Source: Stictocephala bisonia (lineage: Eukaryota; Arthropoda; Insecta; Hemiptera; Membracidae). From it: a stretch of DNA of 64,000 bases. Both the position numbers and the translations under genes were made by a program. Shown piece by piece: positions 1,730-57,000 of this stretch. Numbering within the stretch: position 1 is the stretch's first letter; every line of letters starts with the position of its first letter. The notes beneath the pieces were generated by a model. The model searched no databases and had not been told where the DNA came from. It was given only the letters and a program-made list of their open reading frames with translations. Location: assembly GCA_035578905.1 (NCBI GenBank), contig JAQJVL010000058.1, positions 2,485,388-2,549,387 on the forward strand. Direction: 5' to 3'.

Positions 1730-2932
1730 ATGAAAAATAAAACTCAGAAATATCCCTGTGGACAATGCACAAAAAATATAACTAAAATAAGTCCCTCTGT
1801 TCTATGTAAGGGAATGTGCACACAGTGGTATCATGTAAAATGTACTTCTCTTTCTCAAGAAGAATTTAACAGCCTGAAAAAATCCTCTAAAAAATGGATT
1901 TGTAATCAATGTCTGTCTGTTGATGTTACTTTAGGGAACGATAGGGAAGCAATAGAAATAAGTAATGACATAACACAGGAGCTTGAGACGCAAAATGAGA
2001 TTATTAAAACACTAACAGAGGACTTGAATGAGGCAAATGAAGTAATTAAACATCTTAAGAGCCATACATTTCAGCTTGAAACTATGCTCTTAAAAAAAGA
2101 AGAAGCAATAATAATGTTAGAAAGAAAAGTTAATTTATTAAATAATAAAGCTAAGGATGCTAATAGGATTGGTGGTTTAAGATCTCACATAGGAGAATAT
2201 AGCCTACCAATAATACACTCTACCCCAGTCGGCTCTGTAACAAGAAACACTGAGAAAAATAATAATACGTCCTTTGCTATGGTTGTTAAGGGAAAGAAAA
2301 CTTGTAATCCCGCAAAAATAAATAAGCCTAGTAATATAGAGTCCACTGTTCTGTCCAACCGTTTTCAAGCCCTGAGTAGTGAAGAGGAAGAAAACTCTAA
2401 TGGTCCTGTCACTGTAAATAGTGTACAGGATTCAATGAAAGCTAGGCAGAAGGTGAATAAAATACTAATCTGTGCCGATAGCCATGGCAGAGATTTAGCA
2501 TGGCATATAAATAAATCCCAAAAAGAATACGAAGCAGTAGGTTATGTGCGGCCAGGTGGTCGAACAAAACAAGTGTTAGAAAGAAGAAATATCGAAGAAG
2601 CTAAACTTACTAAGGATGATGTTTTAGTTGTATGCTGTGGGACAAATGACGTGGCGAGAAACGAAGCTGATGAAGTAATGGAAGGTGTAACGAATATCTT
2701 AGACTCAGCTAAGGAAACTAAAGTTGTTATTGTGAATCTGCCAAACAGGTATGATTTACCAGACTGGTCATGTGTGAACAAGGAAGTAAGGAAAACCAAT
2801 CAACGACTTCAAGAGCTCAGCAGAAAATATGAAAATGTAATTTTGGTGGAGGCGAGCAAAGCTGAAAGACACTGTCATACACGCCAAGGTCTCCATCTCA
2901 ACCACAGGGGGAAAAAGCGTTATCAGAAATGA
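1730..2932 (+). CDS. LINE ORF1: PHD finger, coiled coil and SGNH-type esterase domain
   Basis: 400 codons, open throughout. Residues 10-61 form a complete Cys4-His-Cys3 PHD-type zinc finger (C10, C13, C26, C30, H35, C38, C58, C61). Residues about 75-140 are heptad-like and charged (coiled coil). Residues about 240-398 resemble the SGNH hydrolase of CR1-type ORF1 proteins: ADSHGRDL (nucleophile Ser), CCGTNDV (Gly/Asn block) and GLHLNHRG (catalytic His). ORF1 proteins bind the element RNA; the role of the esterase is not settled. It is followed after 82-136 nt by the reverse transcriptase ORF. Confidence 0.85.
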   Translation: MKNKTQKYPCGQCTKNITKISPSVLCKGMCTQWYHVKCTSLSQEEFNSLKKSSKKWICNQCLSVDVTLGNDREAIEISNDITQELETQNEIIKTLTEDLNEANEVIKHLKSHTFQLETMLLKKEEAIIMLERKVNLLNNKAKDANRIGGLRSHIGEYSLPIIHSTPVGSVTRNTEKNNNTSFAMVVKGKKTCNPAKINKPSNIESTVLSNRFQALSSEEEENSNGPVTVNSVQDSMKARQKVNKILICADSHGRDLAWHINKSQKEYEAVGYVRPGGRTKQVLERRNIEEAKLTKDDVLVVCCGTNDVARNEADEVMEGVTNILDSAKETKVVIVNLPNRYDLPDWSCVNKEVRKTNQRLQELSRKYENVILVEASKAERHCHTRQGLHLNHRGKKRYQK

Positions 2933-3068
2933 TAACTGAAGCTGTAGCAGTGAAGCAGCAGCCAGGACGTTCCCGCTGTGAAAATGATGAGCAACCTAAC
3001 CCACCAGGCACTGAGTCGCTGTCGGGAAACGCCTCTCCTCTCATACAGAACAACCACCCATAGAACAT

Positions 3069-5897
3069 GTGTCAACAGATCTTAACATTTATCATTGTAA
3101 TGTTCGGTCTATAAGAAATAAATTAAATGAGATAGATATTTTTTTGACAAGCATCAGCTGTGACATTTTAACATTAAATGAGCACTGGTTATTCGAGGGA
3201 GAATACTCTCTCTACATCCCCGCAGGATATAAATTAGGTAGTATCTGTGGTAGGGATAATTTATTTGCACGAGGTGGAGGCAGTGTTATATATGTTAAGC
3301 AAAATATTGAGGCCCAAACTTTAGATGTAAAACAATTTTATATGGACAGCATCTTTGAAGTAACTGCCATTTTACTACCAAATATTAATTTAATTATATC
3401 CACTCTTTACAGAACTCCAGATTCGAATGTCAACCAGTTTTTAAATGTACTTGAATCTTTTTTATTGTGTTTGAGTAAGAAATATATAGGATTAACTTAT
3501 GTAATTGCTGCTGATTTTAACATAAATATACTGTCCAGATCACTTGAGAGAGAATGTTTTTTAAATTTACTTCGCTCGTTTGATATGTACTGGTTAAATG
3601 AAGAACCAACTAGGGGTGATAAATGTTTAGACAATATTGTTACAAATTTTGATAGAAAGAAAGTGAATTGTTCTGTAATAGAACCCCACTTATCTGATCA
3701 TGCCGGGGTCTATGCACAATTTAAAGAATTAGTTATTAAAAACAGAGTTGATAAAAATGTGTCTGTTAAAATTAAAAGAAATTTAAATCCTGCTTCACTG
3801 TCATGTCTTAGAAACAAATTGTCTCAGATTGAGTGGATGCAGTTAGGAAATTATAGTAATGTTGATCAAGCTTTTGATATTTTTAATTTATTACTGACAA
3901 ATTCATTTAATGAATGCTGTAGTATTAAGGAAGTAAAAATAAGGAATGGGCCAAATATAAATATTAAATGGTATACTCCAGAGTTAAAAAAATTTAAAGA
4001 ATATGTAACAACTTTTTATGATCGATATAAAAATAGCAAGGGTACACCAAATGAAATAGTTTTTAAGCAAGATTATATAGAAGTGAAAAGAAGGTACAAA
4101 AATAAAATTATCTATTGTAAAAAGGTTGCAAATGAACAATATATTATGAATTCTTCTAATCAATGTAAGGCGGCATGGAATTTGATTAAAGCTGAGTCAA
4201 ATTCAAAAACATATAGTCAAGAGGTATTTGTAGACTCTGATACTTTTAATACTCATTATGTTAATGTGGTTAATAACCTAAATATATCTGGGGACAACAA
4301 TGTGTCTAATAACCAGGCTTTAGAATTAGTCAAGGATTTTGTATTACATAAAAACTCGGAGGGTAAAATGTTAACTTGGCAAAAAATCAAAACTACTGAC
4401 ATAATAAATTGTGTAACCAATTTAAGTACCTCGTGCAGTGAAGATTATTATGGGCTGTCTAATAAGGTTTTAAAGTATATAATTGAGGTAATAGTCAACC
4501 CATTATCTTTCCTGTTCAATAAAATGTTGGAACAAGGTATTTACCCTAGGGCACTCAAAGTAACCAAGGTGATACCAGTTTACAAAAAAGGTGACAGATT
4601 GAGCCCATCAAGTTATCGACCTATTTCTCTGGTCCCAATTATTAGTAAAATTCTTGAATCATGCATAAAAGGTCAAATAAATTCTTTTTTTATTAGTAAT
4701 AACTTGTTCTGTGAAGAACAGTTTGGTTTTATGTCAGGTAAAAATACAATCAAAGCAGTGGAAAATGTGGTTAATAAAGTTCTGGCAAATTTTGAAAATA
4801 AACTCTTGTCATCTGCGTTACTGATTGATCTGTCAAAAGCTTTTGACTGCATAAATCCTGAGATTCTTAAACAAAAGTTACTTTGCTATGGTATAAGGGA
4901 CAAGGAGCTCAGTCTATTGATATCATACTTGAGTGACAGGAAACAAATGGTTGTACAGGGAGAAGATAAATCTGTTTTTAGAAAAGTAGAGGTTGGAGTT
5001 CCACAGGGATCAGTCCTTGGGCCTCTACTTTTCATTATCTCGGTAAATGATTTTCCTTTCAATGTTCCTTGCCCTTCAATTTTATATGCGGATGATACAA
5101 CGCTTGTTAATTGTAATACAAATTTAGATAAACTTATTATTGAAGAAAAACATGCCTTAGATATAGCAATAGAATGGTTCCACTCTAACTCTTTGATTGT
5201 AAATGACCAAAAAACTGAAAGTATTGTATTTTCGCTGGATTATTCTATTTATAAGGAATACAAACCTGTTAAGCTGTTAGGTATCCATATAGATAGTAGG
5301 TTAAGCTGGGACTGTCATATAGAACATTTGTGTATAAAACTATCTAGAGTTATTTTTCTCCTTCGAAAACTAAGAACCTGTGTCACTCTTAACATGTTGA
5401 TCACTGCGTATTACGCTTTTTTCCATTCCCATATGAGGTATGGGATAACTCTATGGGGTAACTCTTGTGGGGCACAAACTGTTTTTAAATGGCAGAAAAA
5501 GGCTCTAAGGGCAATTAAAAATATATCAGCTAGGGAATCTTGTGTGCCATTGTTTAAAGAGTATAAAATAATGACTCTCCCTAATCTTTATATTTACTGT
5601 TGCTTGATGGATATCAAGCAATCTTTGAAAAATCGTCCTACAAGACAAGAAACACATAATTATCCTACTAGGAAAAACTACCTTCTCGAAACAATACCAG
5701 TAAGATTAGAAAAGACAAAATGTAGTCATGTTTTTATGAAAATCAAATTATTTAATAAATTGCCAAAAGAATTATGGTGTTTGCCCTTGAAGCAGTTTGA
5801 AATAAAAGTAAAAAAGTTTTTAAAGGAAATTGTTTTTTATTCAATAGACGAATATTTGGCCTATGATATTGATATTAGTGTTGTAAGTAGTTTTTAG
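3069..5897 (+). CDS. LINE ORF2: AP-type endonuclease and reverse transcriptase (CR1-like)
   Basis: About 942 codons, uninterrupted. The frame is open from 3015 and has no ATG near its start (3069 is GTG), so translation probably depends on reinitiation or readthrough from ORF1. Endonuclease motifs: NVRSIRNKLNEID, LNEHWL, YRTPDSN, ADFNIN, SDHAGVYAQF. Reverse transcriptase motifs: VIPVYKKGD, SYRPISLVPIISKILE, LIDLSKAFDCIN, GVPQGSVLGPLLF, and the catalytic YADD in ILYADDTTLV. The C-terminal region has no RNase H. Intact catalytic residues suggest a recent insertion. The clade (CR1 or close Jockey-superfamily) is inferred from ORF1 layout. Confidence 0.9.
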   Translation: MSTDLNIYHCNVRSIRNKLNEIDIFLTSISCDILTLNEHWLFEGEYSLYIPAGYKLGSICGRDNLFARGGGSVIYVKQNIEAQTLDVKQFYMDSIFEVTAILLPNINLIISTLYRTPDSNVNQFLNVLESFLLCLSKKYIGLTYVIAADFNINILSRSLERECFLNLLRSFDMYWLNEEPTRGDKCLDNIVTNFDRKKVNCSVIEPHLSDHAGVYAQFKELVIKNRVDKNVSVKIKRNLNPASLSCLRNKLSQIEWMQLGNYSNVDQAFDIFNLLLTNSFNECCSIKEVKIRNGPNINIKWYTPELKKFKEYVTTFYDRYKNSKGTPNEIVFKQDYIEVKRRYKNKIIYCKKVANEQYIMNSSNQCKAAWNLIKAESNSKTYSQEVFVDSDTFNTHYVNVVNNLNISGDNNVSNNQALELVKDFVLHKNSEGKMLTWQKIKTTDIINCVTNLSTSCSEDYYGLSNKVLKYIIEVIVNPLSFLFNKMLEQGIYPRALKVTKVIPVYKKGDRLSPSSYRPISLVPIISKILESCIKGQINSFFISNNLFCEEQFGFMSGKNTIKAVENVVNKVLANFENKLLSSALLIDLSKAFDCINPEILKQKLLCYGIRDKELSLLISYLSDRKQMVVQGEDKSVFRKVEVGVPQGSVLGPLLFIISVNDFPFNVPCPSILYADDTTLVNCNTNLDKLIIEEKHALDIAIEWFHSNSLIVNDQKTESIVFSLDYSIYKEYKPVKLLGIHIDSRLSWDCHIEHLCIKLSRVIFLLRKLRTCVTLNMLITAYYAFFHSHMRYGITLWGNSCGAQTVFKWQKKALRAIKNISARESCVPLFKEYKIMTLPNLYIYCCLMDIKQSLKNRPTRQETHNYPTRKNYLLETIPVRLEKTKCSHVFMKIKLFNKLPKELWCLPLKQFEIKVKKFLKEIVFYSIDEYLAYDIDISVVSSF

Positions 5898-13100: not shown

Positions 13101-16100
13101 ATAATTCACACAAAACTAACAGTTTGTCAAAAATTACGATTTTAGAGTTAGTAGGCCTAGACCTTTAAGTCAATAAACTACAACACAAAACGTTCCACAC
13201 TTGAAACAACATCCAATGAACTTTATATTAATGTTTTTATCAACGATAAATTGTTTAAGTAATTCTGCATTTTATTGATAATAACTGAATAAATAATCCA
13301 CCCAGTTCTGGGAACCGAGCCTTAGGTATTGGACGGGTCGCAGGTGGCGGATAGCGAACGCTCCATCAGATATGGTGGACAGCTGCGAATAAGGGACAAC
13401 CTGAATAAGCAGTCCCGGACCGAGGCGGCAGCACCTAGAGGGCGTGGGGGGGTGATCCGTGGCGGGATCACACTCAACTAAGTCCACAGGAGCTCAATGA
13501 TAGTGCTGTGTCATGGCGAGGAAGTGCCGCCATCAAATAAGCACTGCCCGTACTGCCTTGTACAATAAGGTTTGGGTACTCAAAGACTAGGAGAAGGTAA
13601 CTCTGATATAAAACCGAGGTTATGTTAGGATCTCAGAGCTGTAGTGGAAGCAGCTAACCTAGAAGGCGACTCCAATAGCAAACCCCTGGTCCTCCAGGTT
13701 GGGGGTTGGGCGCTGGGCTGACAACCCGCCCTGTGAAACACAATTGTTACTCATCACCAACAAAAAGCCTCGGAAAATGAACAGAATAAAAGGATAATGA
13801 CTTGGAAATGCCCAAAAATGTTACGATTTGGTACATGGAACGTAAGAAGCCTAGCAATACCTGGAGCTAGTGACATTCTGGCACAGGAGTTAGAAAGATA
13901 CGACATGGATGTTGTAGCTTTACAAGAAACAAGGTGGCCTTTGGCAGGAAGGATTAACACTAAGAAATATCTTATTTACTATAGTGGCTGTGAGGATAAT
14001 AGATATTATGGGGGAGTAGATTTTGCTGTAAATAAGAGAATTGCAGAATCTGTGATACATTTTGAAGCCAAAGACAATAGAGTGTGCAATATTAGATTAA
14101 GAGGAAAGTTTAAAAATATATCTCTAGTCAGCTTTTATGCACCCACAGAAGAAGCAGAAGAGGATGAAAAAGACCATTTTTATGAACTTCTAGAAGAACA
14201 GGTGGAAAAGTTACCAAGTTATGATATGAAAATTGTTTTAGGAGATGCAAATGCTAAAGTAGGTAGGGAAGACATTTGGAAACCAGCCATAGGAAAGGAG
14301 AGTTTACACCAGGACTCAAATGACAACGGGACTCGACTTGCAAGCTTTGCCCTAGCAAACAACTTCAAAATATCCAGCACAATGTTCCCAAGAAGATATC
14401 CATAAATACACATGGACATCTCCAAACCGCGATACAAGAAACCAAATAGACCATGTTTTAGTAGATCAACGCCACAAAAGTAGTGTAATAGATGTAAGAA
14501 GTGTTAGGGGAGCAGAATGCGGGACGGATCACTCACTGGTTCTAGTCAAAATAGCCCAAAGAATAGCGATTCAGAAAAGAAAAGAAAAAAGTTGTAATGC
14601 AGATATAGACACAGGAAAACTAAAAGACAAACAAGTAACAAGTGAATTTAAGCTGAAACTGCAGAACAGGTTTGAAGTTCTACAAGACCTTCAAATAGAA
14701 GAGGAAGATGTAAATAAAAACTGGAACGGCTTTAAGGAAAATATAATCGAAATAGCAAGAGAAGTCTGTGGGAAAAAGAAAAGAACCAACAAAAAACCTT
14801 GGTTTGATGAGGAATGTGAACTAAAGTTAACAGAACGGAGGGAGAAGAAGAGGACCTGGATAAACAGCAATTCCATAGAGGATAAAGAACGATACAACGA
14901 GATAAACCGAGAAACAAGCAGGATATTGAGAAAGAAGAAAAGAAGGTACATAAACAGCTTGATTGAAAAAGCAGAACAAGAACGCACAGCAAACAATGCA
15001 AGAGAGTTTTATAAAAAAGTAAGGTTTTTTCAAAAGAGGATTCACTCCGAATCCATGTGGTGTGAAGAACAAAGAGGGAATTGTAGTAACTGAGACTCAG
15101 CAAGTTATAGAAAGATGGAGAGAATATTTTTGTGAGCTGTTAAATGTAGAAGGAGTGGACATCGCACCAGACGAGGATAACGAAGATATATGCTATCATG
15201 TACAGCCAAAAGTAGAAACACCAACCAGAGAAGAAGTCGAAGCAGCAGTTAAAGCTTTAAAAAACAATAGAGCCCCTGGTAGGGATGAAATACCTGCAGA
15301 GCTTCTAAAGAAGGGAGGAGATATAGTTATAGACAAGCTATGGGAATTGATAAAAATAATATGGGAAAGAGAAGAAATACCAAATGATTGGAGAGAAGCA
15401 ATAGTTGTTCCCATACACAAGAAAGGAGAGAAAGAAGAGTGTAGTAATTTTAGAGGCATCTCACTCCTTAGCATACCTTATAAAGTTTTATCTAAGATAG
15501 TATTAAGTCGTATTGAAGAGTATACATGCGAATTAATCCTAGAGCATCAGGCAGGTTTTATGAAAGGCAGGTCAACAACGAATCAAATATTTATTCTTAA
15601 AGAAATTATATCGAAGTACTGGGAGTTTAATAAAGAATTTTTTGCAATATTTATTGATCTCCAAAAAGCATATGATAGTTTAAATAGAGACTGTGGAAAA
15701 AGATGGACAAGTTTGGGATTCCAATAAAGCTGATAAATCTTGCTAGAACATGTATGATGGACTCCACAGGCTCAGTACGAGTAAATGGAAGAGTTTCGGA
15801 ACCCTTCAGAATCAATGCAGGTGTAAGACAGGGTGATGGACTCTCCCCAATCCTCTTCAACCTAGCGATAGAAGAAGCTCTCCAAAAGGTAGCAAAAATG
15901 GATGGAGGAATAACAATTGGCTCCAAAATTAATGTACTGGCATTCGCAGACGATGTAGTAATTTTTGCAGAAAATTTAGAAGACGTACGGCTGCTAACAA
16001 AATTATTCATGGAAGAAACAGAACAATTAGGTCTAAAAGTAAATGATGAAAAAACCAAATATATGCAATTTGCCAGAAATCCAATTAACATAAATCAAGA

Positions 16101-19100
16101 CACTCTCCAAGTAGAAGGCCATGAATTTGAAAAGGTAGATTCTTTTAAATATTTAGGCGTTGTAATATCTAGAGAAAACAAAGATGAAATAGAAATACAA
16201 AATAGGCTAAATCTTGCAAACAGATGTTTTTACGCATGCAGATGCGTAATACCACTGTACGTGTATGGGTGGGCGGTTAGTACATGTATATTTTTGTAAG
16301 TTTTGATCAAATGAATTTGAATCATCTACAATTAAAATGTATGCGAGGTTGTTTGTTATATTGTGGCAAATAGTCAAACCAAAGTAGCCTTTGTCTAGTG
16401 ATCAAGGGTTGAAAGTACTAACCCTTAGCCCAGTTGGGGATTCAAATCGCGGACGTTGCAGTATACAGTCTAAACAATTGTCCACTAAGCCAAATGAAAT
16501 AAATATTAATTTTATGAAAACTACAAATAATGATTAAACTCGGAAACTAAGACTGAAAATATTTTTTGGATGGTAAAATACCTCTGTACATGAATGGGTG
16601 AATGGGTGGGTGGGTGGGTGGGTCAATACTTCTGTACGTGTATGGGTGGGCGGGTGGGTCAATACCTCTGTTCGTGTATGGGTGGGTGGGTAGGTCAATA
16701 CATCTGTACGTGTATGGGTGGGTAGGTGGGTAAATACCACTGTATCACTGTAAGGTGGGTCAGAAGCCTTATTTAACTAAAAGATAGGCAACATGCATAA
16801 GATTACAATTAATTATTAAATATAATTGCTGTGACTGTTGTCTTGCATATTTATTTAATAATATGAAAGCTGGGCTATTAATGCATTTTTTTGATGTAAA
16901 CTTGATGAAGACAAACTAATGTCTTCAAAATTACTGTCACAAACAACCAAAATTCGAATATATAAAACAATCATCAGTCCAGTATTGCTCTATGGAGCTG
17001 AAACATGGAAAATCAATAAAAAAGAAGAAAGGAAACTAATTGTCTTTGAAAATAAGATCCTCAGAAAAATTTATGGGCCAATTTTTGAAGGAGAGTGGAG
17101 AAGGAGACACAACAGGGAGTTGAGAGAACTTTACAGGGACCCGGATGTAGTTTGTGAATTTAAATGCAGAAGGATTAGATGGGCTGGACATGTTTTAAGA
17201 AGAGAGGAGAATCATAATTTGAAACAAGTTATAATGAGGAATCCCGAAGGAAGAAGACCGAGAGGAAGACCACGGCAAAAGTGGTGGAAACAAGTGAAGG
17301 GAGACCTGGAGCGATTGGGAGTGACTGAGGAAGACGCGGAGGATAGAGACAGATGGAGGGACTTTGTTGGTGCGGCCAAATATCTTCTTAGATATGTGTG
17401 GCCATGGGAGTAAGTAGAGTAAGTAGGAGTAAGTAACTGAATGAATAAACTGGAAGGTTAATTAACAAAACACGCCGTTCACATTATCTCTTCTTGTTGC
17501 CCACCTGTTGTTACCGGTAATGGTAAACGTAAACAAAACAAATGCATCAGCCCATCCTGCTGTCGATGTATTTTCGTTATTTAAAAAGAACGCAACAGTT
17601 TCATTGAAACAATAACTAGGCACCAAAACGTTTCAACATTTTGCAAATAGCTGCAGTAGAACAGACAGCAACAGTGAGGGTCATCGGATATCAATAGAAC
17701 AAAACGATAACTCCCGAAGTTTAGTCGCAACTTTAACCTGCAGCGTAAGTTGCAACAGAATGTCAACAAATCTAAGAGGCGACGCTTGACATTGGATTGA
17801 TTTGCGTGTTTCGGCAAAATGCGGTGGGTGAAGCTATCATATTGTCTGCAACAATTTCATTCAACTGTTTCGACATCAAAACTGTTTCAGTTGCAACCGT
17901 TTTGTCAAACTATTCCATGTGTATTATTTTGAACATTTTAATGTTCCGAGTCGACTCGTGTCTTATCATACGAAGATTGACGATGTTTCCCGAACTTGAG
18001 TTTAACTGGAGCCCTGAAGTCCGAACCTTCCTGACGTCACCGGATTACTCTCGTCTCGCTCGACGAGAATTCCCGATGGTTACCGAAATTCAAGCATATT
18101 TCCAGGTTTTTTTCAAGGTGCCAGAAAATTCAAGCATAATTCCAGGTTTTCCCGAAATTCCCGGTGAGTAGCCACCCTGTGTATAATATAGACATTGTTT
18201 GCAAATTCATTTTTTCTACACACCATGTTGTAGGCTATTTTTAGCATACGACGGTTTAACCGAAAAATTGGTTATCCGAAACGGCTCTCCCCCCTTTATT
18301 TTAGTTAACCAGGGTTTTACTGTACTCGTTTTTAGTATGGTTCGTTGATTGAGTTCAATCTGGCAACGCCCCCCAGTTGACAGCCGTTCGACGCGCTTTA
18401 AAGTGGACACTTGGCACACTATGAACAATTTATTAACACTCTTTAGCATGTGACTGAGCTATCTAATTCTATGTGCTAATACCATTGACTAGAGAAAGAG
18501 AGATTGTCCAAGCCAATAGGTTTGCTGTAGACCTCTGAGTTGCTATCTAATGACGATTGGCTTCATGTAAGACTATTTTGCGTACTATTGGCTCAGCTAT
18601 TAGTCATTTCAGCATGTGCAGGAGAGAGATAGAGAAAGGGACAAAGAGATAGAGAGGGGGAGACTTCTGGCACTAACTGTGAAAACAGAACATGAACTAA
18701 TGTCACCTGATAGGAGAACGGCTCGCAGGACCCATATATCTCCTTGTTCATGTAGTCGATGCTTACACTGAAACTCAAAGCTTCCTGTAACTGTTCATAC
18801 AACATGAAGTGATACGAACAATTAATAGCACCAAATGTTTCACCCATGCAATGATACATCATCTTCAGTGGTATCTCGAGACTGAGATGACAGAGTATGT
18901 CAGGAAAGGCACGTCAGACACAATGGTACTCCAATCAGAGGGAAGTATGTAAAATCTTAATGTTTTGACTTTTCCAATTGGAATCTATTTTGTACATAAT
19001 CTGACGCATATGCCCAAATTGGCAGCCATATCGTAATCTGTGTTATTGATCTTGTTTTGAGCCTGCACAGCTTTGATGAGGAGACAGTGCAAAGATAAGA

Positions 19101-28859: not shown

Positions 28860-29150
28860 CACCAATACCACCGTACGTGTATGGGTGGGCGGGTGGGTTA
28901 CCACTGTATGTGTATGGGTTGGTGGGTGGTTCAGTACCACTGTCATGTATGGGTGGGTCAGTACCACTGTACGTGTACGGGTGGGTAAGTACCACTGTTC
29001 GTGTATGAGTGTACGCTCATAAATGTCAGCCTCATACTGTACATGTATGAGCGGGTGGGTGAGCCAATACCATTGTACGTGTATGGGAAGTTGGAGTCAT
29101 CACCACTGTACGTGTATGGGTGGGTGGGAGGGTCATGTATAAATAAGTAT
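28860..29150 (+). repeat. G-rich minisatellite, locus 3
   Basis: About eight partly decayed units. A perfect quadruplex motif lies at 28883-28897. Followed at once by a foldback element. A few more decayed units in the opposite orientation lie at 29640-29710. Confidence 0.85.
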
Positions 29151-29620: not shown

Positions 29621-29719
29621 GAGATTGTACAGTATAACTGACTCACCCGCCTACACATACACTTACAGTGTCACTGACTCACCAGTGTATCCATACATGT
29701 ACAGTGGCACTGCAATACC

Positions 29720-34100: not shown

Positions 34101-34109
34101 AATTTAGGG

Positions 34110-35165
34110 TGGGTCAATACTACAGTACGTGTATGGGTGGGCAAGTGGGTCAATACTACTGTTCGTGTAAGGGTGGGCGGGTGGGTCAATACTACAGTAC
34201 GTGTATGGGTATAAACGGTTCTTCAGCAAAACTAACACCATTTTCTGCACCTGATTTGAGACTACCAGTACGGAAATAGTGGGCGAAATGCCGTCAAAAC
34301 CTATGGGTGGTTCTGACCTACTGGCCCACCCATAGGTGCAGTGGTTCTGATCCACTGGCCCAACCATAGGTACAGTGGTTCTGACCTACTGGCCCACCCA
34401 CAGGTGCAGTGGTTCTGACCTACTGGCCCACCCACAGGTGCAGTGGTTCTGACCTACTGGCCCACCCATAGGTGCAGTGCTTCTGACCTACTGGCCCACC
34501 CATAGGTGCAGTGGTTCTGACCCACTGGCCCACCTATAGGTGCAGTGGTTCTGACCCACTGGCCCACCCATAGGTGCAGTGGTTCTGACCTACTGGCCCA
34601 CCCACAGGTGCAGTGGTTCTGACTTACTGGCCCACCCACAGGTGCAGTGGTTCTGACCTACTGGCCCACCCATAGGTGCAGTGGTTCTGACCCATACTGG
34701 CCCATCCATACACGTACAGTGGTATTGACCCACCCGCCCACCCATACACGTACAGACGAATACAGACTGGGTGGGCGGGTGGGTCATTAGCACTGTACGT
34801 GTACAGGTGGGCGGGTGCGTCATTAGCACTGTACGTGTACGGGTGGGTGGGTCATTATAACTGCACGTGTATGGGTGGGCGGGTGGGTTATTAGCACTGT
34901 ACGTGTAAGTGTGGGTGGGTGGGTCATTACCACTGGAAGTGTACGGTTGGTTGCGTGGGTCATTAGCACTGTACGTGTACAGGTGGGTGGGTGCGTCATT
35001 AGCACTGTACGTGTACGGGTGGGTGGGTGGGTCATTATTACTGTACGTGTATGGGTGGGCGGGTGGGTTATTAGCACTGTACGTGTAAGGGTGGGTGGGT
35101 GGGTCATTACCACTGGAAGTGTATGGTTGGTTGGGTGGGTCATTAGCACTGTACGTGTATGGGTA
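34110..35165. repeat. G-rich minisatellite, locus 5 (largest, with orientation switches)
   Basis: Units run with G on the plus strand at 34110-34215, flip at about 34300-34755 (a 34-bp subfamily with CTACTGGCCCACCC and GGTGCAGTGGTTCTGAC), then flip back at 34770-35165. Perfect quadruplex motifs are at 34873-34887 and 35053-35067. Long frames here on both strands are repeat artefacts. Confidence 0.9.
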
Positions 35166-38010: not shown

Positions 38011-39394
38011 AATTAATTAAAGATGCTTTTTTCTTGTTGCAGGACAGCCAGGATTTGAACTACCAGATATGTACTAATGCTAAGTTTCAGATATAACTCG
38101 CCAGACAGTGATCTACGACCAGAAGCTGGATCAGGCATGCAAGAGCATGGCAGCAGAGCTGGCCTTTATCTCCCTCAGGATTTAGGCTGGACCTGACGCT
38201 ATGCAGTTCTAGGGCAGATTGTCAGGTGGTTTTAGTGGATAAAAATCCCACACTACTAGCTGTAACTAGAAGATTTACCCCTGACTAAACAAAAATAAAT
38301 ATTTGCTTTACAACAATAACAAACAGTTTGGTAAATTACGTTATAATTTGGTCCGATTTATAAGAAACCAAATAGTCCAGTGTAGCAAAAGTTTATGCAG
38401 TACAAATGGCATTTTTTGCAAAATAATTTTACAGGTCAGGCCCTGTTTAATTTATTTTAACCCTAGAGAGGTGACTCGATATTTGTGACACAGGCACCAA
38501 TTTGAGACTTTGAGGTTTTCTAAGGGTGGTTTTTTTCTTTTCATATTTTTTTCAATGAGTACTGTCTTGGTGGTTTATTTTAACTTTACAAGCAGGATTT
38601 CTAGAAAAAAACATAGATTTTTAATGTTTAAAATTATTTTAATAATTACCGTACCTCGATTATTTAATTAGAAATTTGTAAAAGTCATAAAAAATATAAC
38701 TGGTCAAATATAAACTGTTGAAAAGTGACTATTTACGGATTATTTATGTCAATAATGAAAATAAATTTACAAACAAACAAATTTATCCAATTGTTTAAAA
38801 CAAATATATATATGTAAAATATAATTTGTAAAAATTGCTGTAAAATACGTCTTTCTGGTATTTGTCATAGTAGCGGTAATATATATATAAAGTAATAATA
38901 CAAAAAAATAATAAGAATACATAAATTGATAGAGCTAATTATATAAACTGTGATATTGTAATAATAATAAAACACAATTAGTTGTTTTTGTATTGTCAAA
39001 ACTAAACGATTTCCTTAACTTAGTATAAAATAAATGTATTGTTCAACTAATCCTATTAAATAGTTCTTAAAAACTAGAATGTTACAAAAAGTGGAATCAA
39101 CAAAAATACAGTAGAATGTTACAAGTAGTAGAATTGCCAAGATTTAAAATTTTGATTTGTAAAAAGATGTTAGGAAAATAGTCCTAACCACTCAGCGTCC
39201 AGAGTCACTTCAGAGTCCATGTCATCATTGGAATCCAATTGATCCTGTTCATCACAGCCAACCTCATTAAAATCAGGCTCAGGTGGGATTGAAAATTTGT
39301 AAGAAAAAAAGTAATGGGGGGGTGTATGGGGGGAACAATGTACACAGTGAGTATGAATCTACAAGCTCTGTAATGCACGCATAGTTTCACAATT
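38011..39394. other. AT-rich DNA, nothing firm
   Basis: A B-box-like GTTCAAATCC on the minus strand near 38060 hints at a SINE remnant. The rest is very AT-rich. Confidence 0.35.
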
Positions 39395-39770
39395 ACAACC
39401 CATACCTGTACAATGGTAGTGTAACCCCACCCACCAGCCCATATACATACAGTGGCACTGACCCACCCACCCACCTCTACACCTACAGTGGCATTGACCC
39501 ACTCGCCCGCCCATACACGTACAGTGGCATTAACCCACCTGCCCGCCAATACACGTACAGTGGTATCAATACCAATCAATCAATACCACTGTAAGTGTAT
39601 GGGTGGGCGGGTGGGTCAATACCATTTACGTGTATGGGTAGGTGGGTGGGTCAATACGACTTTACCTGTATGGTTGGGCGGGTGGATCAATACCACTGTA
39701 CGTGTATGAGTGGGTGGGTGGGTCAATATCACTGTACAGTGTACATGTCTGGGTGGACGGGTGGGTTTTT
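39395..39770. repeat. G-rich minisatellite, locus 6 (head-to-head arrays)
   Basis: Units have G on the minus strand at about 39415-39560 and on the plus strand at about 39580-39770, meeting at an ATCAATACCAATCAATC junction. A perfect quadruplex motif is at 39601-39615. The divergent layout matches locus 5. Confidence 0.9.
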
Positions 39771-41008
39771 TATCATAAGTTCAACTCCTTGTACTCCTCA
39801 AGAACAACAACATCTTAAATCCTTAATTAATGAGCTGGAAGAAAGGAAGTCTCGTAGTGAGCAAAATCTGATCATAAAATACAAAAATAATACTCCCTCT
39901 ATAGTTAGTGCTAAAAAAAAAAACGATTACTTATTCTAGGAGATGTTGAATGTGTTTCTGATGCTTTTCATAATCTATAACCTGTAAATATAAAGTATTT
40001 GTTAGATAAATTTACTAAACAAAATAATGTATTTATACTAAGAAACTAATTGTACTGAAGTATATAGTAAATTGATGTTAAAGTGTTTAATAATGGTTAG
40101 TTAAATTAATCATAACTCACCTAGAAGGAAATTACAACCACAGTTAGAAGAGAGATGACTTCGGTCTGTCAACAGCACTCTGAGTGACTAGTGCGCAAGA
40201 CCAAAACAAGAAATAACAATAACAAATCTAACTCCAAAATCAAGCTAACGCACCTGCAGGATCAATATTCCAGGAGGAACGATTAGTGAGTAGTTCAGCT
40301 CTCAGGCGCAGGTATCCAACCGGAAACAACAATAAAATACCATGTCAGTCTCCTGGACCGTTTGTCACCCCAGGGGGTTAAACTAACAGGAGGGTGATTA
40401 TGGTGAATAATTTTAGACAGAAGACATACTATAGCAAAATAATTTTAATGCAAATGTGTGAGAAGTGGAGAGTATGGACCATTTGGAATATTAATAAACT
40501 TTACCTGCAGTGAAGTCTGGCTGCAAACTGAGAGCGTCTAATCCTCAAAAGCCTGAACTAAGGGGGAGGAATCTACAGTTTATCGTGGAATCCGAACCAC
40601 AGGACATGTCTGATCTTGTTGGCTATACTGACAAGTTTGCTCTACTATTCAAATTGAACACTAGATTATCCGTAGTGGCCAAGATGATATGACTATTGAG
40701 CAGACACTTTATTCCATGTGACAACTATTGGTTCATAACTCATTGCTTTTATCATCCAACACCTTGACTCAAATAACAGGATTAAAACACTTTGGCTTTA
40801 AAACCTTTAACAAAATATTTAGTTAGATTTCAATTGGCAGTAGTTTTTACTAATTCAGAATCATCACAGTTATTTCAGCAATAGTAGAAATATATCCTGA
40901 TTTATTTATAGAACGTTGAGATTATTCTCCGTCATCCACTCTAATGGAACTGTATGTCAATGATTGCTTCAAGAAAATGAAGACAATTATATGACATCAA
41001 CTCAGTTC

Positions 41009-41081
41009 GCTGTAGTGTAATGGTGAGTAAGAAAACTCTCACCTATTTACACCTGATGAGACGAAACAACGTCGAAACAGC
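41009..41081 (+). ncRNA. Hammerhead ribozyme, type III topology, complete core (copy 1)
   Basis: Seen in order: stem III 5' strand GCTGT (41009-41013); cleavage-site base A17 (41014); stem I GTGTAA (41015-41020) pairing with TTACAC (41047-41052), with a distal helix GGTGAG/CTCACC (41022-41027 and 41038-41043); core CTGATGA (41053-41059); stem II GACG, loop AAACAA, CGTC (41060-41073); core GAA, then stem III ACAGC (41077-41081). Every invariant base of the hammerhead core is present, including G10.1-C11.1 and A15.1-U16.1. Cleavage is predicted after A41014. The chance of all three helices and the core arising together is very small. Confidence 0.88.
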
Positions 41082-41520
41082 ACACATGGAGACCATCTGG
41101 TCCACGTACCAACATTCTTTCGGTGTGGCCAATGCATAGCGACCAACTGTTGTCAGAAGGTGCCTTAGCAAGCACTATTTGGAGCGCTATTACTTTTGTT
41201 AACGCAGAGTAACCCGTAGACTGTTGTCCGGCGGAAAACTGCAATCATGTGTAATAATTGATGTCTTAGCGACCAATGGTTGAGGTTCGCCCTCACATGG
41301 TAGCGAGTAACATACTCGTGAGTCCAAAAACCATTCTTAACCAGGTCAGTATGGTTAAAGCGCTTGAAGATTGAATGTATGTATGAATTTATGAAGCACT
41401 TGTTGTATGAATGGAGTGTGAATGCACGGCTGTCACCACCTCATGTCGATAGGTGGAAAGGGGTCAGATGACCCGATTCATCAATTATTTGCGTTTCGAG
41501 ATGTCTGTCTCTCGTCAGTT

Positions 41521-41580
41521 GCACGAAGTAGCACAAGACGCTTTCGATCATAGGCGGATCGCCTGTGTTTGAATCAAGAT
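41521..41580 (+). other. tRNA-like (pol III promoter-like) stretch in the retrozyme-like repeat
   Basis: Contains A-box-like TAGCACAAGACG (about 41529) and B-box-like GTTTGAATCAAG (41568-41579). The 56.6-kb copy has the better B-box GGTTCGAATCG. It lies just before the repeat body of copy 2, so transcription from it would run through the ribozyme at 41725. Confidence 0.45.
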
Positions 41581-41724
41581 GGACTAGTTGTTAGTCCGAA
41601 GATCTTAGTAGTGGAGTAAGTTTATAGAACGTTGAGATTATTCTCCGTCATCCACTCTAATCGAACTGTATGTCAATGATTGCTTCAAGAAAATGAAGAC
41701 AATTATATGACATCAACTCAGTTC

Positions 41725-41795
41725 GCTGTAGTGTAATGGTGAGTAAGAAAACTCACCTATTAACACCTGATGAGACGAAACAACGTCGAAACAGC
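41725..41795 (+). ncRNA. Hammerhead ribozyme, type III topology, complete core (copy 2)
   Basis: Same layout as copy 1, with A17 at 41730, CTGATGA at 41767-41773, stem II GACG/CGTC and stem III GCTGT/ACAGC. Two differences lie in stem I: a 2-nt deletion near its loop and one mismatch in the proximal helix. The core is unchanged. Its cleavage site is 716 nt after that of copy 1. Confidence 0.85.
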
Positions 41796-42179
41796 ACACA
41801 TGGAGACCATCTGGTCCACGTACCAACATCCTTTCGGTGTGGCCAATGCATTCACACTCCATTCATACAACAAGTGCTTCATACATTCAATCTTCAAGCG
41901 CTTTAAACATACTGACCTGGTTAAGAATGGTTTATGGACTCACGAGTATGTTACTCGCTACCATGTGAGGGCGAACCTCAACCATTGGTCGCTAAGACAT
42001 CAATTTTTACACATGATTGCAGTTTTCCACCGGACAACAGTCTACGGGTTACTCTGCGTTAACAAAAGTAATAGCGCTCCAAATAGTGCTTGCTAAGGCA
42101 CCTTCTGACAACAGTTGGTCGCTATGCATTGGCCACACCGAAAGAATGTTGGTACGTGGACCAGATGGTCTCCATGTGT

Positions 42180-42241
42180 GCTGTTTCGTCTCATCAGGTG
42201 TAAATAGGTGAGAGTTTTCTTACTCACCATTACACTACAGC
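42180..42241 (-). ncRNA. Damaged hammerhead ribozyme (copy 3)
   Basis: Stem I, stem III and CTGATGA are kept, but 11 nt are missing so that CTGATGAGAC runs straight into GAAAC. The loss removes the loop and 3' strand of stem II, probably by slippage between two CGAAAC repeats. Expected to be inactive or very weak. Confidence 0.8.
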
Positions 42242-42475
42242 GAACTGAGTTGATGTCATATAATTGTCTTCATTTTCTTGAAGCAATCATTGAAATACAG
42301 TTCCATTAGAGTGGATGACGGAGAATAATCTGAACGTTCTATAAACTTACTCCACTACTAAGATCTTCGGACTAACAACTAGTCCATCTCGACTGATTTA
42401 TTTAGCTAAAATATTTTTGTACAGTCCTGGCAAACGCAAATAGACAGTTGTCACAGTTTTTTTTTATAGTTTTTA

Positions 42476-42780
42476 ATTAGTATATTGGAGAGATAGGACA
42501 TCAGCAAACTTACCTTAGAAGATGAGTTCACTAACACCAGAGTAGTAGTAACAATCACAAAATAAACACAATCTCACAAATTTTCAATGCCACTGGCATT
42601 TTCTACTCACCTGAAGAAAATATCAGTGGCATTGAAAATTTGTGAGATTGTGTTTATTTTGTGAATGTTACTACTACACTGGTGTTAGTGAACTTGTCTT
42701 CTAAGGTAAGTTTGCTGATGTCCTATCTCTCCAATATACTAATTCCTGGCCTAGTGCCCTTTAACCTAACTTAAAATTTT
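42476..42780. mobile_element. Foldback element, family F, copy 1
   Basis: Inverted arms of about 125 bp (TTAGTATATTGGAGAG at the left, its complement at about 42742). A tail ATTCCTGGCCTAGTGCCC followed by TTAACCTAAC follows the right arm. The centre holds CTGAAGA (42611) and, after a TCAGTGGCATT stretch, GAAAA (42634). Same family as 58180-58451. Confidence 0.8.
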
Positions 42781-50595: not shown

Positions 50596-51026
50596 TCACA
50601 AAACCGATTCTATTTGTTTGATTTCGATAGGACCAGGTTTTACGGGCTGGCCTCCTACAGGACTTGGGGCTGTTTCTACGATCTCTGGGATATTGGTCAT
50701 CTCTTCATCTCCATCCTCGGCCTCCTCTTCCTCGTCTTCGTCAATGGGCGTAAGAGCGTCCATGATGACGGGCGGCTCCTCCTGGGGTACACAGCTCTTG
50801 AGCATCGGGGCAATGAAGCTGGCTATGGTTGCCAACAAAAAGAACCCGGCTGCCATGAAGAATGGGTACATGTATGAGAGCGTGGCATCGTACACCATCC
50901 CAGCGATGGGCGAGCCGACAATAGCAGCAGCACCGCGGAACAGGATCAGCAAGCCGAATGCGTTGGTCAGCTTGTCCAACCCCAAGAGGTCAACCAGGAT
51001 TATGGAGGTTAGAGAGATGTAGGCGG
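50596..51026 (-). CDS. SLC16 transporter last exon: helices 10-12 and tail
   Basis: The acceptor TTGTTGCAG at 51027 gives the correct phase, so the join reads GLAISAYISLTSIILVD. An alternative AG about 18 bases upstream would break the frame. The exon encodes the last helices (YMYPFFMAAGFFLLATIASF) and an acidic cytosolic C-terminus, with stop TGA at 50598-50596. The exon is unusually GC-rich for the window. Confidence 0.9.
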
Positions 51027-54000
51027 CTGCAACAATGACAAAGCTATTCAATGGGGGAAATAGGGCATTGCCAAACTTGAGATTGTAAGATCACTACCAA
51101 AAACATAAGAAACAATATACAAAACAGAAAGCATGTACAGAAATGTTTAATGCCACTGGCAGCGTCTTCAGGCTAGAAACACTCTAGCCTGTTGAGCCTC
51201 ATGCCAATTAACTGAGCCTGCTTTATCACTCTGATATATATGCCTTTGTACAATCAACTTCTTGTTATCTGTCATTGATAATAAAATATTACAACGGCTC
51301 ATTATATCTTTAAGTAAGTATACAATATTATATATGATTAAAAAGTGGACAATTCCAGTATCAGCTATTTTTCATCAAGATGTTTTGGTTGAGTAATACG
51401 TACGTGTATCAGCCAATCTGTCCAAGATGTTTCAATACGAGTTTCAGATCGTGTGATCCATCTTTAGGTTTCCTGTTTCGTCTGAGCACAGGACTAGTCC
51501 CAGTGTGTGTCGGCATGTGCTTTTTTTAAAATTTGTTCAATTTAAATATAATTGTTGACGTGAGTGAACCTTGATATATCATATAAGTGTGATGTGTATT
51601 TAATAACTTAATAAAGATGAAACAGATGACCTGATAATGGATCACTCGGTCTGAAACGCATCGTCCAGTTTTCACAAGTTGGACAGATTGACTGATACAT
51701 GTAAGTAATAGTTGATCATTGTCCGGGGCTAAAATGATTGATTTTAAGTTTTTGTTGAGTTAAAGAAGGGTATTATACCAGGTTTTCTTCTTCAACTCAA
51801 TGTCTCACCTTTGAATCGTATTATCACTGTCCAGCTAGATATTTTCCCACTTATATAGTGTGTTTTTTAACCTACCATATTTTAGTCTTAGGATATATTT
51901 AATTTTATTTTTATAGTAAATGGGAGACTTGGTTTGTGAATACTAGATAGTATAATTTTTAATTAATTGTATTTGTTATCTGTGCCATTAAGTTTTGATG
52001 TTTTTAGTGTGAGAATAGTTTTAAAAATCTTAAATTCGACTCGAGTTTAAAAAAAATTTAACAAAATCAAGTCGAGTTTTGCCATATGTTTGAGAGTAAA
52101 ACACTATAATCAAGACAAAAGTTCCATTTGTATAATAGATTATTAAGATAAGTATTTTATGTAGGCAACTGTATTTAAAGTATGATCATAATATCGTATT
52201 CGTAACCGGAGATGTTCTCGGTTATAATGTTCCCGGTGTATTCAGATTCATGATTCATGTACACCAGTCTCAATCGTACAGCCATGGCGGCTACAGCGAA
52301 AAGTATTCTCATTATTTATAAAGAAAGCACGTCCAAATAAGCTGTTCCAAATAGCCGTCACTAGTTATTCATATAAAACGTGATTCATCACAAAGAATCA
52401 GATCAGTTATTGAACCGTTACATAACTTTTACTAACATTTGATATTAACAGTTGCATTTATTTCAGGTCCATCCTTTAAAAGTTCACAAATAAAACTATT
52501 CCAAGACTGACAATTTCGGACAGTTCTAATTAAATCGTGTTCACTCTACAACAGAAACTAAGCATGGAACGTAAACTATCGGAATTGTAAAACTATAATA
52601 ATTTGAGAGAGAATGCCTGGAACAGTTTTGTTTTGACACCGTTACTAATAAAATAATGAAATAACGATTAGTGTAGCTACTACTAGTACATCGCCGACTC
52701 AACGAGTCCCAATATAAAATGTACTGCTAGCAAATGTGGATTTGATTTGTTATCCGTGTTGTTTTGAGTTTTTGTTGACGTTTACACTAGAGATGGAGAT
52801 TACAGTTACTTTTCCGATAACCTGTTATGTAATTCTATTATGTTCTGATAAAGTGTTATAATAATCTGTTATTTTTGTAACCTGTTACTCTTGACTCGTT
52901 GCTGTGACATTTCAGACAATTGTTTTGTTATGACCTGACGTTACTTAACGGCTCGAAGCCTCGTTATTTGTTGCGGCTGGTCTAGCTAACGTTCCAAGTT
53001 ACCAAAGGTTATGAAGCTGAAGTTATGCCTTATGTTACTGTATGATAATGAGTTACGGGCGTTGCGGCTTTGCTTGACGTTACAGAGTTACCGCTCAAAG
53101 TTCGTTCTGTTATCGATAATTTAACTGTAACATGCAAGAGTATTAAATTTCATTCGTAGTTCAGTTACAGTTCTGTTTACTTTTCAACACGCTATACTTA
53201 CTCTCCATTATCACTATGCGTTACAGTTACATGTTCGTTATAACCTTATCATGCATCACTTTGAGTTACAAAAATACCGGATATTTTGTGTAACCTGTTA
53301 AATCTATAACAAGTTACATTTCATTTATTTACCATGTTATTTATCCTGTTTCGTTAAATAACACCCATCTCTTGGCAACTCAAATTGAAACATGGAAGTA
53401 CGAATAGTACAATAAAAACGAAAACAAGGTTAACCTTGACCAGTCGGCAGTTGTTATCGCTAGTTAGTATTGTATTGACAATTAATTATTTTGTTTCTGT
53501 TAGTGGAAACAAAACATTGTAGTCAATGGTGAAATTGAGGTTAGCTGAAAAGAACATATTATTGTGTAACTACTGTTTTATGGATTATTAGGTTAACTTT
53601 CAATTGAACAAACACATTACACATTAATAGTTTTGTGAACTTTCGAAACTTTTTAAGTTTGTCAGCTTGATTTGATTACATTTTATAGATCAACTTTCGC
53701 AGTAGAGTTAGCCGTAAGGTTTTTAGTGCCAGGTTGCAATTTTTGTTTGATTTCAGTATTTTAAATTTGTACTCTGAGTATATTTTTGACCTCCTTTTTA
53801 TAATTTATGATAAATATTTCACATATTATTTTACAGTTTATTTAACACATATCTTAATGAGTATTTATATTTAATCACTGATACAATCATTTCATAGATT
53901 CTAAAACAATTTTCCGAACTTTATTGATTATTCAGCGAACTAAATAAATAGTATTTGAATGTATTGCTTACTCCATTTCATTATTTTCATTTTTGAAAAT

Positions 54001-57000
54001 TAGGAGATAAACACTAGATTTGAAAAAAACTCCAACTAGAAATTATGTCTAAAAACTCGACTCGACTCCTAAAACTGCTACTCGCAACCCCTAATTATTT
54101 TTTAAATCTTTTACAGTGATGAGCCAAAAACTTAGCAAAACATATATTCCTAATGGGGTTGATAGATAAATATAAGGTAGCAAGACACAAACTGAAAAAT
54201 TAACATTCCAAGCAGACCAATTATCTTTTAGGTATTTTGCCATAAGAGACAATGAACAGTTCCCTGTTTGCAGTAAGGCTATTATTAGTTTGTATGGAAT
54301 TTCAAATAAAGAAGTCTCCCGGCTCACCTGTATAAAGAAGTATAACACAACACATTGGAAACAGGAGAAGAAACCAATCTGATACAGTTTTACAAGATAA
54401 TTTAACAAAAAACCAAGATCATACTTCTGTATTTTAACAAAAATAACTCACTACACTCAACCAATACACTACACTCAATCACTACACTACACTCAATCAC
54501 TACACTACACTCAACCACTACACTACACTCAACCACTACACTGCACTCAACCATCCGTTCATTATTTAGATACAGATTTATCAGTCACTAAAATGCACAT
54601 ATGATTTATTTAGAAGTGCTAAGTGTGAATATAACTTTAAAATATTTTAAGGATACCTTTCGTATCTCTTGGGTGGACCTAGAAACGTGTTGGAGTGGCT
54701 GAGATGCTGTCTATAAACTAGGGGTGTGCGAGTACTTGAAACTTCGAGTATTTGATCGAGTATTTTACTACTCGAACTCGGCTCGAAGATCCTAAAACTA
54801 CTTGAAGTTCGATCGAGTAGTTGTATTTCACGAAATATCAGATTTACATCTTAATTTAGTTTTAAGAGTAAACAGTTTTATAAGTTATCAATAAAAAATG
54901 TTTGTGTTTTATTTTACCCTTAATCATACGTTATCAGTTTGGTACGTGTAATTATGAACTAAACAATACGCCTAAGAATAGATAGTACATGACGACAGTC
55001 AAATGAACTAGTCGACGTAGTGAACGAGTTTGTTCATTATGATTTGAACTAGTTCAGTTCAAAGTGATCAACAGAGCTGGGAATGTAGCGATCACTGTAA
55101 ATAGTTGCGATAACATATGTTGGTTGTCAAGTCTACTAGTCACTTGTAACCTAACCTAAAATAGCGTGAATAAAACAGAAGTGCTGGTTAGTGTCTTTAT
55201 GACCCAAGAAAGGAGACGAGAAATCTGTTTCAAGATGCTGTTACCATTACAAATCTAATAGTCTGTGCACCGTGGAAATTATGCATATTTTCGTTCATAT
55301 CAATAATACTGTTCAATTAAAGGGGTCCCGAGAACGGATCATCCCAAGAATCGAACTTCCCATCTTTTCTAGGTGAAAGTTCATCTTGGTTGTAGTATAG
55401 GTACGTGCAAGGAACCGTTCAGCCCCTTTTCGGAAATGAAATTATCGTATATTTCTTGCGAGTCGATTGAGGTCTATTTTGTTTTGTAATCTGAGCAGGG
55501 AATCGTCCAATGATTTGGCGTAAGAAAATACCGTATCATATCATAAAATATGGTAATGGCATTCTAGCAGCGTGTGACACAACATTATTGATTTATTTCC
55601 GTCAAATAAAAAATAGATTTATATCCGTGGCGAACGTCTATTAATTATTATTCTGAAAACACCTTAGATCGCCAAAACTGTGCGTAATATTTGCGCAAAC
55701 GATATTTTTTCCTATCAAAGTGTTGAACGGTTTTCTGACTAGGTTAGACAATAACACAGTTGGAGTGTAAAAGATGGTAAAGTACGATAATTTTGATCCG
55801 TAAATTCAATGAACGGTCCCCTGTTCACATTGACGTCGATGTAAACTGTATAACAATCACGAATCAACCAAAGTGAGGGAGAAACATGTTGGAAGACTTT
55901 TTCTAAACAAAATACGAGGAATTTAGAGATTCGGAAAATCATTTTTACTGAACCGAAGCCTTATCAAATGTGTCGCTTTTTATTCATAAGTTTATAGTTT
56001 AGCTGCCCAAAATCTTCACTGTATCACTAGTTGGCACTTAGCTGATATTTCAGACTGCATCTCATCGCCAATATCAGGTAGATCTATTATATTAGCCGAC
56101 TATGTCTATGGTTTTCATTCAATTACACCATGTTTTAATGAATTTCTCGTTATGACATAATTATTTATCTGTTGTTCAGTGTAGCCTCATGTATCGAAGT
56201 AGTTTCAAGTTGCACATATTTCATTACCGATCATAATTTTAAAACTAATTCATCCTAAGCGACTTTAAAATTTATTTTTAGTAAACCTGCTTAGTTATTA
56301 TTATCAACTGATTGAACCACAGTTGCTTGATAAGACACCTTCTGACAACAGTTGGTCGCTATGCATTGGCCACACCGAAAGGGTGTTGGTACGTGGACCA
56401 GATGGTCTCTGTGTGTGCTGTTTCGACGTTGTTTCGTCTCATAAGGTGTAAATAGGTGAGAGTTTTCTTACTCACCATTACACTACAGCGAACTGAGTTG
56501 ATGTCATATAATTGTCTTCATTTTCTTGAAGCAATCATTGACATACAGTTCCATTAGAGTGGATGACGGAGAATAATCTCAACGTTCTATAAACTTACTC
56601 CACTACTAAGATCTTCGGACTAACAACTAGTCCATCTCGATTCGAACCACAGTCTTTGTAATCCAGATTTTCAAATTCGGGTAAAATGTACAGTAAAATC
56701 TTCAAGAAGACTGTGCATAAATTTCTTATGAAGAAAGTGTTTTATTCCATTCCAGAATTTACCGATGGACTATGGAGTTGGTCAGATTTTAAATAAGTAG
56801 TCACCGTTGACAACCCTAGTTTTAATGACTTTTGCTATGTATTTTTGTAAAATATCCTACAGCAATAAAACATATTCTATTCTATTCTAATTCAGGGCTT
56901 ATTTCCGGTTAGTTGTAACCTTGTTATTACTGAATTAAATACCCACAGAATACAGATCCACTCTTCTTGGCGTATACAGAATCAATTTTTTGTTGAGAGG

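Follow-up and report, generated by a model that had tools for sequence, protein, structure and literature searches.

Surveys of RNA data recognise viroid-like RNAs by paired ribozymes, one on each polarity, and one such survey arrived at 20,364 species (PMC11721086). Circles with one ribozyme may instead be retrozymes, since all known retrozymes, according to a review, carry just one (PMC11721086). Here we describe a locus that would not fit this rule. It lies in a stretch of 64,000 nucleotides (nt) of contig JAQJVL010000058.1 (assembly GCA_035578905.1) of Stictocephala bisonia, referred to below as the window, and it is built from a 716-nt repeat with hammerhead ribozyme motifs on both strands. 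We put at roughly 60% the probability that the repeat is a non-autonomous retroelement of the kind without long terminal repeats (non-LTR), with a mobile form that is a 716-nt circular RNA carrying a type III hammerhead on each polarity. An earlier, sequence-only reading of the window, which had called the locus retrozyme-like, had thought a type III layout in an insect unusual. This is partly right; type III hammerheads are, however, described from the genomes of termites, as isolated motifs, and of Diptera, and the delta-like RNAs of termite and toad have them in pairs (PMC7936874). Moreover, a review of 2020 mentions 'elements with type III HHRs' from insects as work in preparation (PMC7761336), so type III motifs alone may not make an insect element new. 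Among the open-licence papers listed in our literature searches, no title or abstract opening reported an animal element that is integrated in a genome and has hammerheads on both of its strands.

The main locus is a single insertion of about 1.48 kb, consisting of 1.32 units in forward orientation and 0.76 unit inverted, within a 12-bp target-site duplication. We call the plus-strand sense of its complete unit A and the opposite sense B. Its parts are listed here, the two direct units as delimited by repeat search.
40905 to 41620, plus strand: complete 716-nt unit, A sense, GC content 43.2%
41621 to 41851, plus strand: second, partial unit in direct orientation
41847 to 42392, minus strand: inverted partial unit, A sense on the minus strand, with an 11-nt and a 12-nt deletion relative to the first unit
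40897 to 40908, plus strand: left target-site duplication, CTGATTTATTTA, its last four bases, TTTA, common to target and element
42393 to 42404, plus strand: right target-site duplication, CTGATTTATTTA, matching the left flank
42369 to 42392, plus strand: element end in B sense, common to this insertion and to a second one, a hairpin GGACTA-ACAAC-TAGTCC followed by ATCTCGA

The forward part begins at unit position 0 (40905), runs through one whole unit and continues to about position 230 (41851). There it joins the inverted part at a 5-nt microhomology, TGCAT (41847–41851), and the latter proceeds on the minus strand from unit position 669 through 716/0 to 521. Flanks matching over 12 or more positions were found in only 3 of 20,000 random placements at the span of this locus. 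The direct repeat (40905–41137 and 41621–41851) measures 233 and 231 nt in its two copies; the sequence-only reading gave a period of 715 bp, where we find a register of 716, which becomes 714 beyond a 2-nt deletion within the second copy. That reading had seen the tandem hammerheads correctly but had missed the inverted third copy (41847–42392), the minus-strand hammerhead (41491–41541), the target-site duplications and the second insertion (56324–56643).

Four copies of the A-strand hammerhead are present in the window, two with intact cores, at the coordinates where complete type III motifs had already been noticed, and two without.
41009 to 41081, plus strand: A hammerhead of copy 1, intact core, predicted cut 41014/41015, 24.5 bits in our own covariance model (see below)
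41725 to 41795, plus strand: A hammerhead of copy 2, intact core, predicted cut 41730/41731, 21.2 bits
42180 to 42241, minus strand: A hammerhead of the inverted copy, broken, stem II gone through the 11-nt deletion, 28.5 bits nonetheless
56417 to 56489, minus strand: A hammerhead of the second insertion, core broken by a change of G5, 18.6 bits

The motif reads GCTGTA^GTGT...CTGATGA-GACG-AAACAA-CGTC-GAAACAGC, and its core fits type III at every conserved position, both of the familiar consensus and of an alignment of phage motifs. In copy 1, helix I is extended, with 6 bp, an internal loop and a capping hairpin, and unconstrained minimum-energy folding returns the hammerhead topology for copies 1 and 2 alike. 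The predicted cuts after 41014 and 41730 are 716 nt apart, which supports the earlier proposal that plus-strand transcripts would release a 716-nt RNA. A strict descriptor of type I and III hammerheads finds three motifs in the window, all of them at this locus, compared with 21 on the two strands of 139 Mb of Markov-random sequence; the motifs thus exceed chance. In the inverted copy (42178–42241 compared with 41009–41081), one of two nearby CGAAACA repeats has been lost in a deletion of 11 nt, which takes away stem II and resembles those left by slippage.

The same 716-nt unit holds a second hammerhead on the opposite strand, which differs from A and is not a copy of it.
41491 to 41541, minus strand: B hammerhead, type III, intact core (CTGACGA, GAAA), predicted cut after GUC at 41537/41536

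Read 5′ to 3′, B consists of a stem III strand GCGU, the predicted cut after C17, helix I of 6 bp with a 6-nt loop and two G–U pairs, CUGACGA, stem II of 4 bp, also with a loop of 6 nt, and GAAACGC; helix III has 4 bp. The core is intact in the single copy available. Random sequence of B-strand unit composition gave two strict type III matches in 213.5 Mb, or about 7e-6 per 716-nt unit, with stem cut-offs chosen after B had been seen; a looser descriptor of types I and III, set up earlier, gives about 1e-4 per unit for both strands.

Kinship of these motifs to known hammerheads was assessed with a covariance model made from phage type III motifs alone, with no window sequence inside. Of 44 motifs listed, 28 were aligned, seven were dropped for misaligned stems and 21 were modelled. 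Run unfiltered over both strands of the window, the model places the five sites of the element first to fifth: A of the inverted copy (28.5 bits), A of copy 1 (24.5), B (22.5), A of copy 2 (21.2) and A of the second insertion (18.6). The best unrelated match, in sixth place, has 10.8 bits and an E-value of 1.3. For B, the E-value is 4e-4 for the whole window; E-values from this model are rough, and it is the gap in bits that can be relied on. Applied as a check to 30 of 138 phage loci, the model gave 38 matches of 13.3–38.7 bits, 31 of which overlap the words by which the loci had been fetched, while each of the other seven contains a strict CTGANGA...GAAA core. The highest score in the window belongs to a site that lacks stem II; what the score ranks is thus kinship to hammerheads and not activity.

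A second insertion lies about 14 kb away in the window. It is truncated and not inverted, and stops short of the region of the B hammerhead.
56324 to 56643, plus strand: second insertion, B sense on the plus strand, about 97% identical to the unit
56314 to 56323, plus strand: left target-site duplication, GAACCACAGT, 10 bp
56644 to 56653, plus strand: right target-site duplication, GAACCACAGT, 10 bp

Flank matches of 10 or more occurred in 28 of 20,000 random placements at this span. The two insertions end in the same B-sense sequence, and both ends have ATCTCGA where the internal copy at the main locus reads ATCTTGA. We conclude from the target-site duplications and the presence of a second insertion that the element is mobile.

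The anatomy of the insertions also bears on the question of which RNA polarity served as template. When reverse transcription is primed by the target, the new DNA extends from the target as the complement of the RNA. Of the two target-attached ends at the main locus, the left one has A sense on the top strand and the right one on the bottom strand. If synthesis was primed at the target, both ends would therefore have been made on a B-sense template, in the pattern of twin priming, in which both ends of the broken target serve as primers on one RNA. The second insertion agrees, its constant end being 3′ and its truncated end 5′ in B sense. The first complementary DNA (cDNA) begins 47 nt before the second priming point, and the second cDNA runs for about 947 nt through an uncut B site. 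Because this forward copy spans 1.32 units across that site, the template, as judged from the insertion, is longer than one unit or circular. The four bases TTTA that target and element have in common lie at the second priming point, as would be expected if the target end had annealed to the RNA there.

These features suggest the following cycle. Transcription of tandem copies would yield A-sense RNA, from which the two A hammerheads would cut a 716-nt monomer, to be closed by a host ligase of the RtcB type; in vitro, RtcB closes retrozyme RNAs of animals into circles (PMC7229834). B-sense multimers would arise by antisense transcription of the genome or by RNA-to-RNA copying of A circles, and the B hammerhead would trim them; in plants, retrozyme RNA of minus polarity has been detected by reverse transcription-PCR (PMC4918200). 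The last step, which the anatomy of the insertions supports, would be reverse transcription of B RNA at a nicked target by machinery of a long interspersed element (LINE) or of Penelope type, priming taking place on the side of the common end ...CATCTCGA and duplications of 10–12 bp being left behind. At the main locus, both target ends would have been primed on B RNA, giving the inverted structure. There is precedent for such a route into the genome in the hammerhead repeats of Nematostella, which have LINE-like duplications of 15 bp (PMC4918200). If the scheme holds, insertions would record which RNA polarity is reverse-transcribed, which data on circular RNAs alone cannot do.

The element has no coding frame, as had been noted before: the longest ATG-initiated open reading frame (ORF) on the circularised unit encodes 43 aa on the A strand and 36 aa on the B strand. 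Minimum-energy folds of the circle exceed in stability those of 25 dinucleotide shuffles for each of the two polarities (z-scores of −3.8 and −5.8), with 62–63% of bases paired. In these predicted folds, 24 and 20 pairs join the A core to the complement of the B core. Opposed ribozyme cores are described for most avsunviroids and for several viroid-like satellites (PMC7461866).

A number of observations weigh against a hammerhead element of two polarities. The facing of the A and B cores arises partly from the letters common to any hammerhead consensus. Two of the four A motifs are broken, the top-scoring one among them. B is known from a single copy, no other copy in the window spanning its region, and its helix III is short. 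Taken in isolation, B is predicted to fold best into another structure, at −12.1 kcal/mol as against −8.5 kcal/mol for the active fold; within a 69-nt segment the best fold does take the hammerhead shape, but stem II extends into the core. The argument for a B-sense template is conditional on target priming and draws on two insertions. No partner retrotransposon with the same tail, allowing up to three mismatches, was found in the window. Finally, the window as a whole had no match in Rfam at gathering thresholds, to hammerhead families or any other, and at E ≤ 10 no hammerhead match to A was obtained with 40800–42500 or 40995–41095. For B, the segment 41470–41560 matched HH9, truncated, with 14.5 bits and an E-value of 0.25, leaving aside one lower match of the same clan.

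The sequence-only reading had offered a poor covariance score as grounds for giving up the hammerheads, and formally such a score was obtained. We judge it unsound for this purpose and reject the equation of a missing Rfam score with a missing ribozyme, because canonical phage motifs fare likewise. As a control, phage hammerheads were fetched from viral contigs by means of motif words, and 16 of 19 loci were given to Rfam. Three of these loci (L122, L125 and L131) have a regular type III motif by descriptor, an irregular match in L129 being left out of the count, and none of the three reached gathering; the miss of A and B is thus not decisive. It retains some weight nevertheless. A phage type II hammerhead, in L128, did pass gathering, and the type III motif of L125, the sole one rescored at E ≤ 10, has 43.4 bits against a cut-off of 48.5, so A and B are clearly further from the Rfam consensus than the L125 motif.

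On balance, the element looks like a variant between a retrozyme and a retroviroid. Because self-cutting motifs on both strands are otherwise typical of viroids, it may be related to a viroid-like circular RNA, as a resident of the genome, or be the fossil of one. If a mobile genomic element does carry paired hammerheads, the one-ribozyme rule would be broken and host genomes could be the source of some 'viroid-like agents'; the proposed descent linking retrozymes and viroids would also become testable in what appears to be an animal. A bolder version, which we entertain only tentatively, is that of an animal retroviroid, a 716-nt circle replicating from RNA to RNA by a symmetric rolling circle and entering chromosomes by target-primed reverse transcription of minus circles. 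If true, it would connect retrozymes to viroid-like replicons by a link still living or of recent date.

We think it unlikely that the locus is an ordinary retrozyme in which A is the sole working ribozyme, B resembles a hammerhead by accident or is a decayed one, and the inverted structure arose by chance rearrangement. The single occurrence of B, its short helix III, its competing fold and its 14.5 bits in Rfam all lend themselves to such an account, which has nevertheless to accept a full-core motif with a chance per unit of about 7e-6 (type III, that strand) to 1e-4 (types I and III, both strands), a score for B within the range of the A motifs in an independent model, and insertions that point to a B-sense template.

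It is rather improbable that the locus is no transposon at all but the endogenised remains of an exogenous viroid-like or satellite RNA, a circle of the host multiplying by symmetric rolling circle and occasionally copied in by resident LINEs. The ribozymes on both polarities, facing one another in the predicted fold, the lack of coding capacity and the circular or multimeric template would all suit an RNA of this kind, and searches for viroid-like RNAs make use of paired ribozymes (PMC11721086). The presence of two insertions in 64 kb, however, suggests many genomic copies, which is more like a transposon. Three diagnostic words of the element had no exact match in a collection of viral contigs, a weak argument against such an origin as the collection may not hold such RNAs. 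Exact searches of prokaryote genomes with words of the element, and blastn searches of plasmids, likewise gave no match.

A DNA fold-back element or palindromic rearrangement carrying hammerheads by chance, for which the long inverted arms at the main locus (309 and 181 nt, 98–99% complementary) and a separate fold-back adjoining at 42475–42744 might be cited, is very improbable, since the second insertion shares the end sequence and has a target-site duplication of its own without being palindromic, the direct repeat passes the 716-nt register seamlessly as a circle would, and the outer ends of the main insertion fall at different unit positions, 0 and 669, unlike terminal inverted repeats.

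The neighbouring fold-back, about 70 bp past the element, has two 130-nt arms that are 95% complementary and 10 nt apart, and a 22-nt piece of it recurs at 39283–39304. Elsewhere in the window, a minisatellite family of 34–36 bp (CCCACCCATACACGTACAGTGGTATTGA-like, by eye) forms short arrays in both orientations at 378–586, 16607–16744, 28865–29011, 29627–29712, 34109–34210, 34307–35164 and 39426–39743, the last being two arrays that face each other. A LINE with open frames occupies 1730–5897; its ORF1 has a GDSL-like domain and a PHD finger just below the curated cut-off, and its ORF2, with a reverse transcriptase, is open over 942 aa. A second, broken LINE (13797–17413) retains pieces of endonuclease and reverse transcriptase and has the array at 16607–16744 inside it. 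Between 36000 and 38000 the GC content is 45–51%, compared with 35% for the window, and no ORFs of 120 aa, Rfam matches or strong repeats were found there. The minus strand at 50596–51051 is a possible exon of a host gene of the major facilitator superfamily, by eye similar to monocarboxylate transporters; its MFS_1 match has 29.6 bits, below the curated cut-off of 33.4. Searches of nine window ORFs against Pfam returned the LINE proteins and this sub-threshold match.

Among described systems, the metazoan non-LTR retrozymes (PMC7229834) resemble the present element in being non-coding, in having hammerheads in direct tandem repeats, and in their target-site duplications, where these occur, of more than 4 bp (here 12 and 10) and low GC content, below 45–50% (here 43.2%). 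They differ in having type I motifs in repeats of about 150–450 bp, whereas here all motifs are type III, the repeat is 716 bp and both strands are involved. With the plant LTR retrozymes, the element has in common a dimeric arrangement of type III hammerheads about 700 nt apart (600–1000 bp there, 716 nt here), but those have 4-bp target-site duplications and a primer-binding site and polypurine tract next to their LTRs (PMC4918200), where we find duplications of 12 and 10 bp. The description 'retrozyme-like' is therefore apt for a non-coding, mobile element with tandem type III hammerheads, but falls short of the second full-core motif on the opposite strand, as predicted here, and of the B-sense template: retrozymes in general are described with a single ribozyme (PMC11721086), and self-cleavage of the retrozyme of J. 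curcas is reported for plus polarity only (PMC4918200), whereas our minus-strand hammerhead is known from its sequence.

The delta-like RNAs of termite and toad have type III motifs on both polarities with an extended helix I, comprising an internal loop and a capping hairpin, as in A (PMC7936874). The GCCR/YGGC loop pairing described for them is absent from A by eye, no frame of delta antigen size is present, and the unit is half the size; the type III motifs in termite genomes are isolated, without delta-like surroundings (PMC7936874). An RNA of the Kolmioviridae is ruled out by the 43-aa longest ORF and by a unit of 716 nt as opposed to a circle of about 1.5–1.7 kb. The element is not itself Penelope-like, since it has no long reading frame, whereas Penelope-like elements encode a reverse transcriptase and carry the hammerhead in terminal repeats; Penelope is possible as the mobilising partner. 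Members of the Avsunviroidae and other viroid-like RNAs with paired hammerheads share one hammerhead per polarity, opposed cores and the lack of coding capacity, features seen here in sequence and prediction, but viroids have no DNA copy and measure 234–506 nt (PMC7461866, PMC13343976), whereas this element is genomic DNA with target-site duplications.

For a viroid-like RNA copied into DNA, the closest precedent is the carnation retroviroid-like element. It reportedly has hammerheads on both polarities and a length of about 275 nt. In that system, a viroid-like RNA has a DNA counterpart in a genome (PMC7461866, PMC7761336); here the DNA copy and both motifs are read directly, and a viroid-like RNA would be their counterpart. 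The carnation element is described as joined to a pararetrovirus or to the plant genome, a pararetroviral link having been sought here through the ORF and Pfam lists only; the present element, by comparison, has a unit of 716 nt and is set between target-site duplications.
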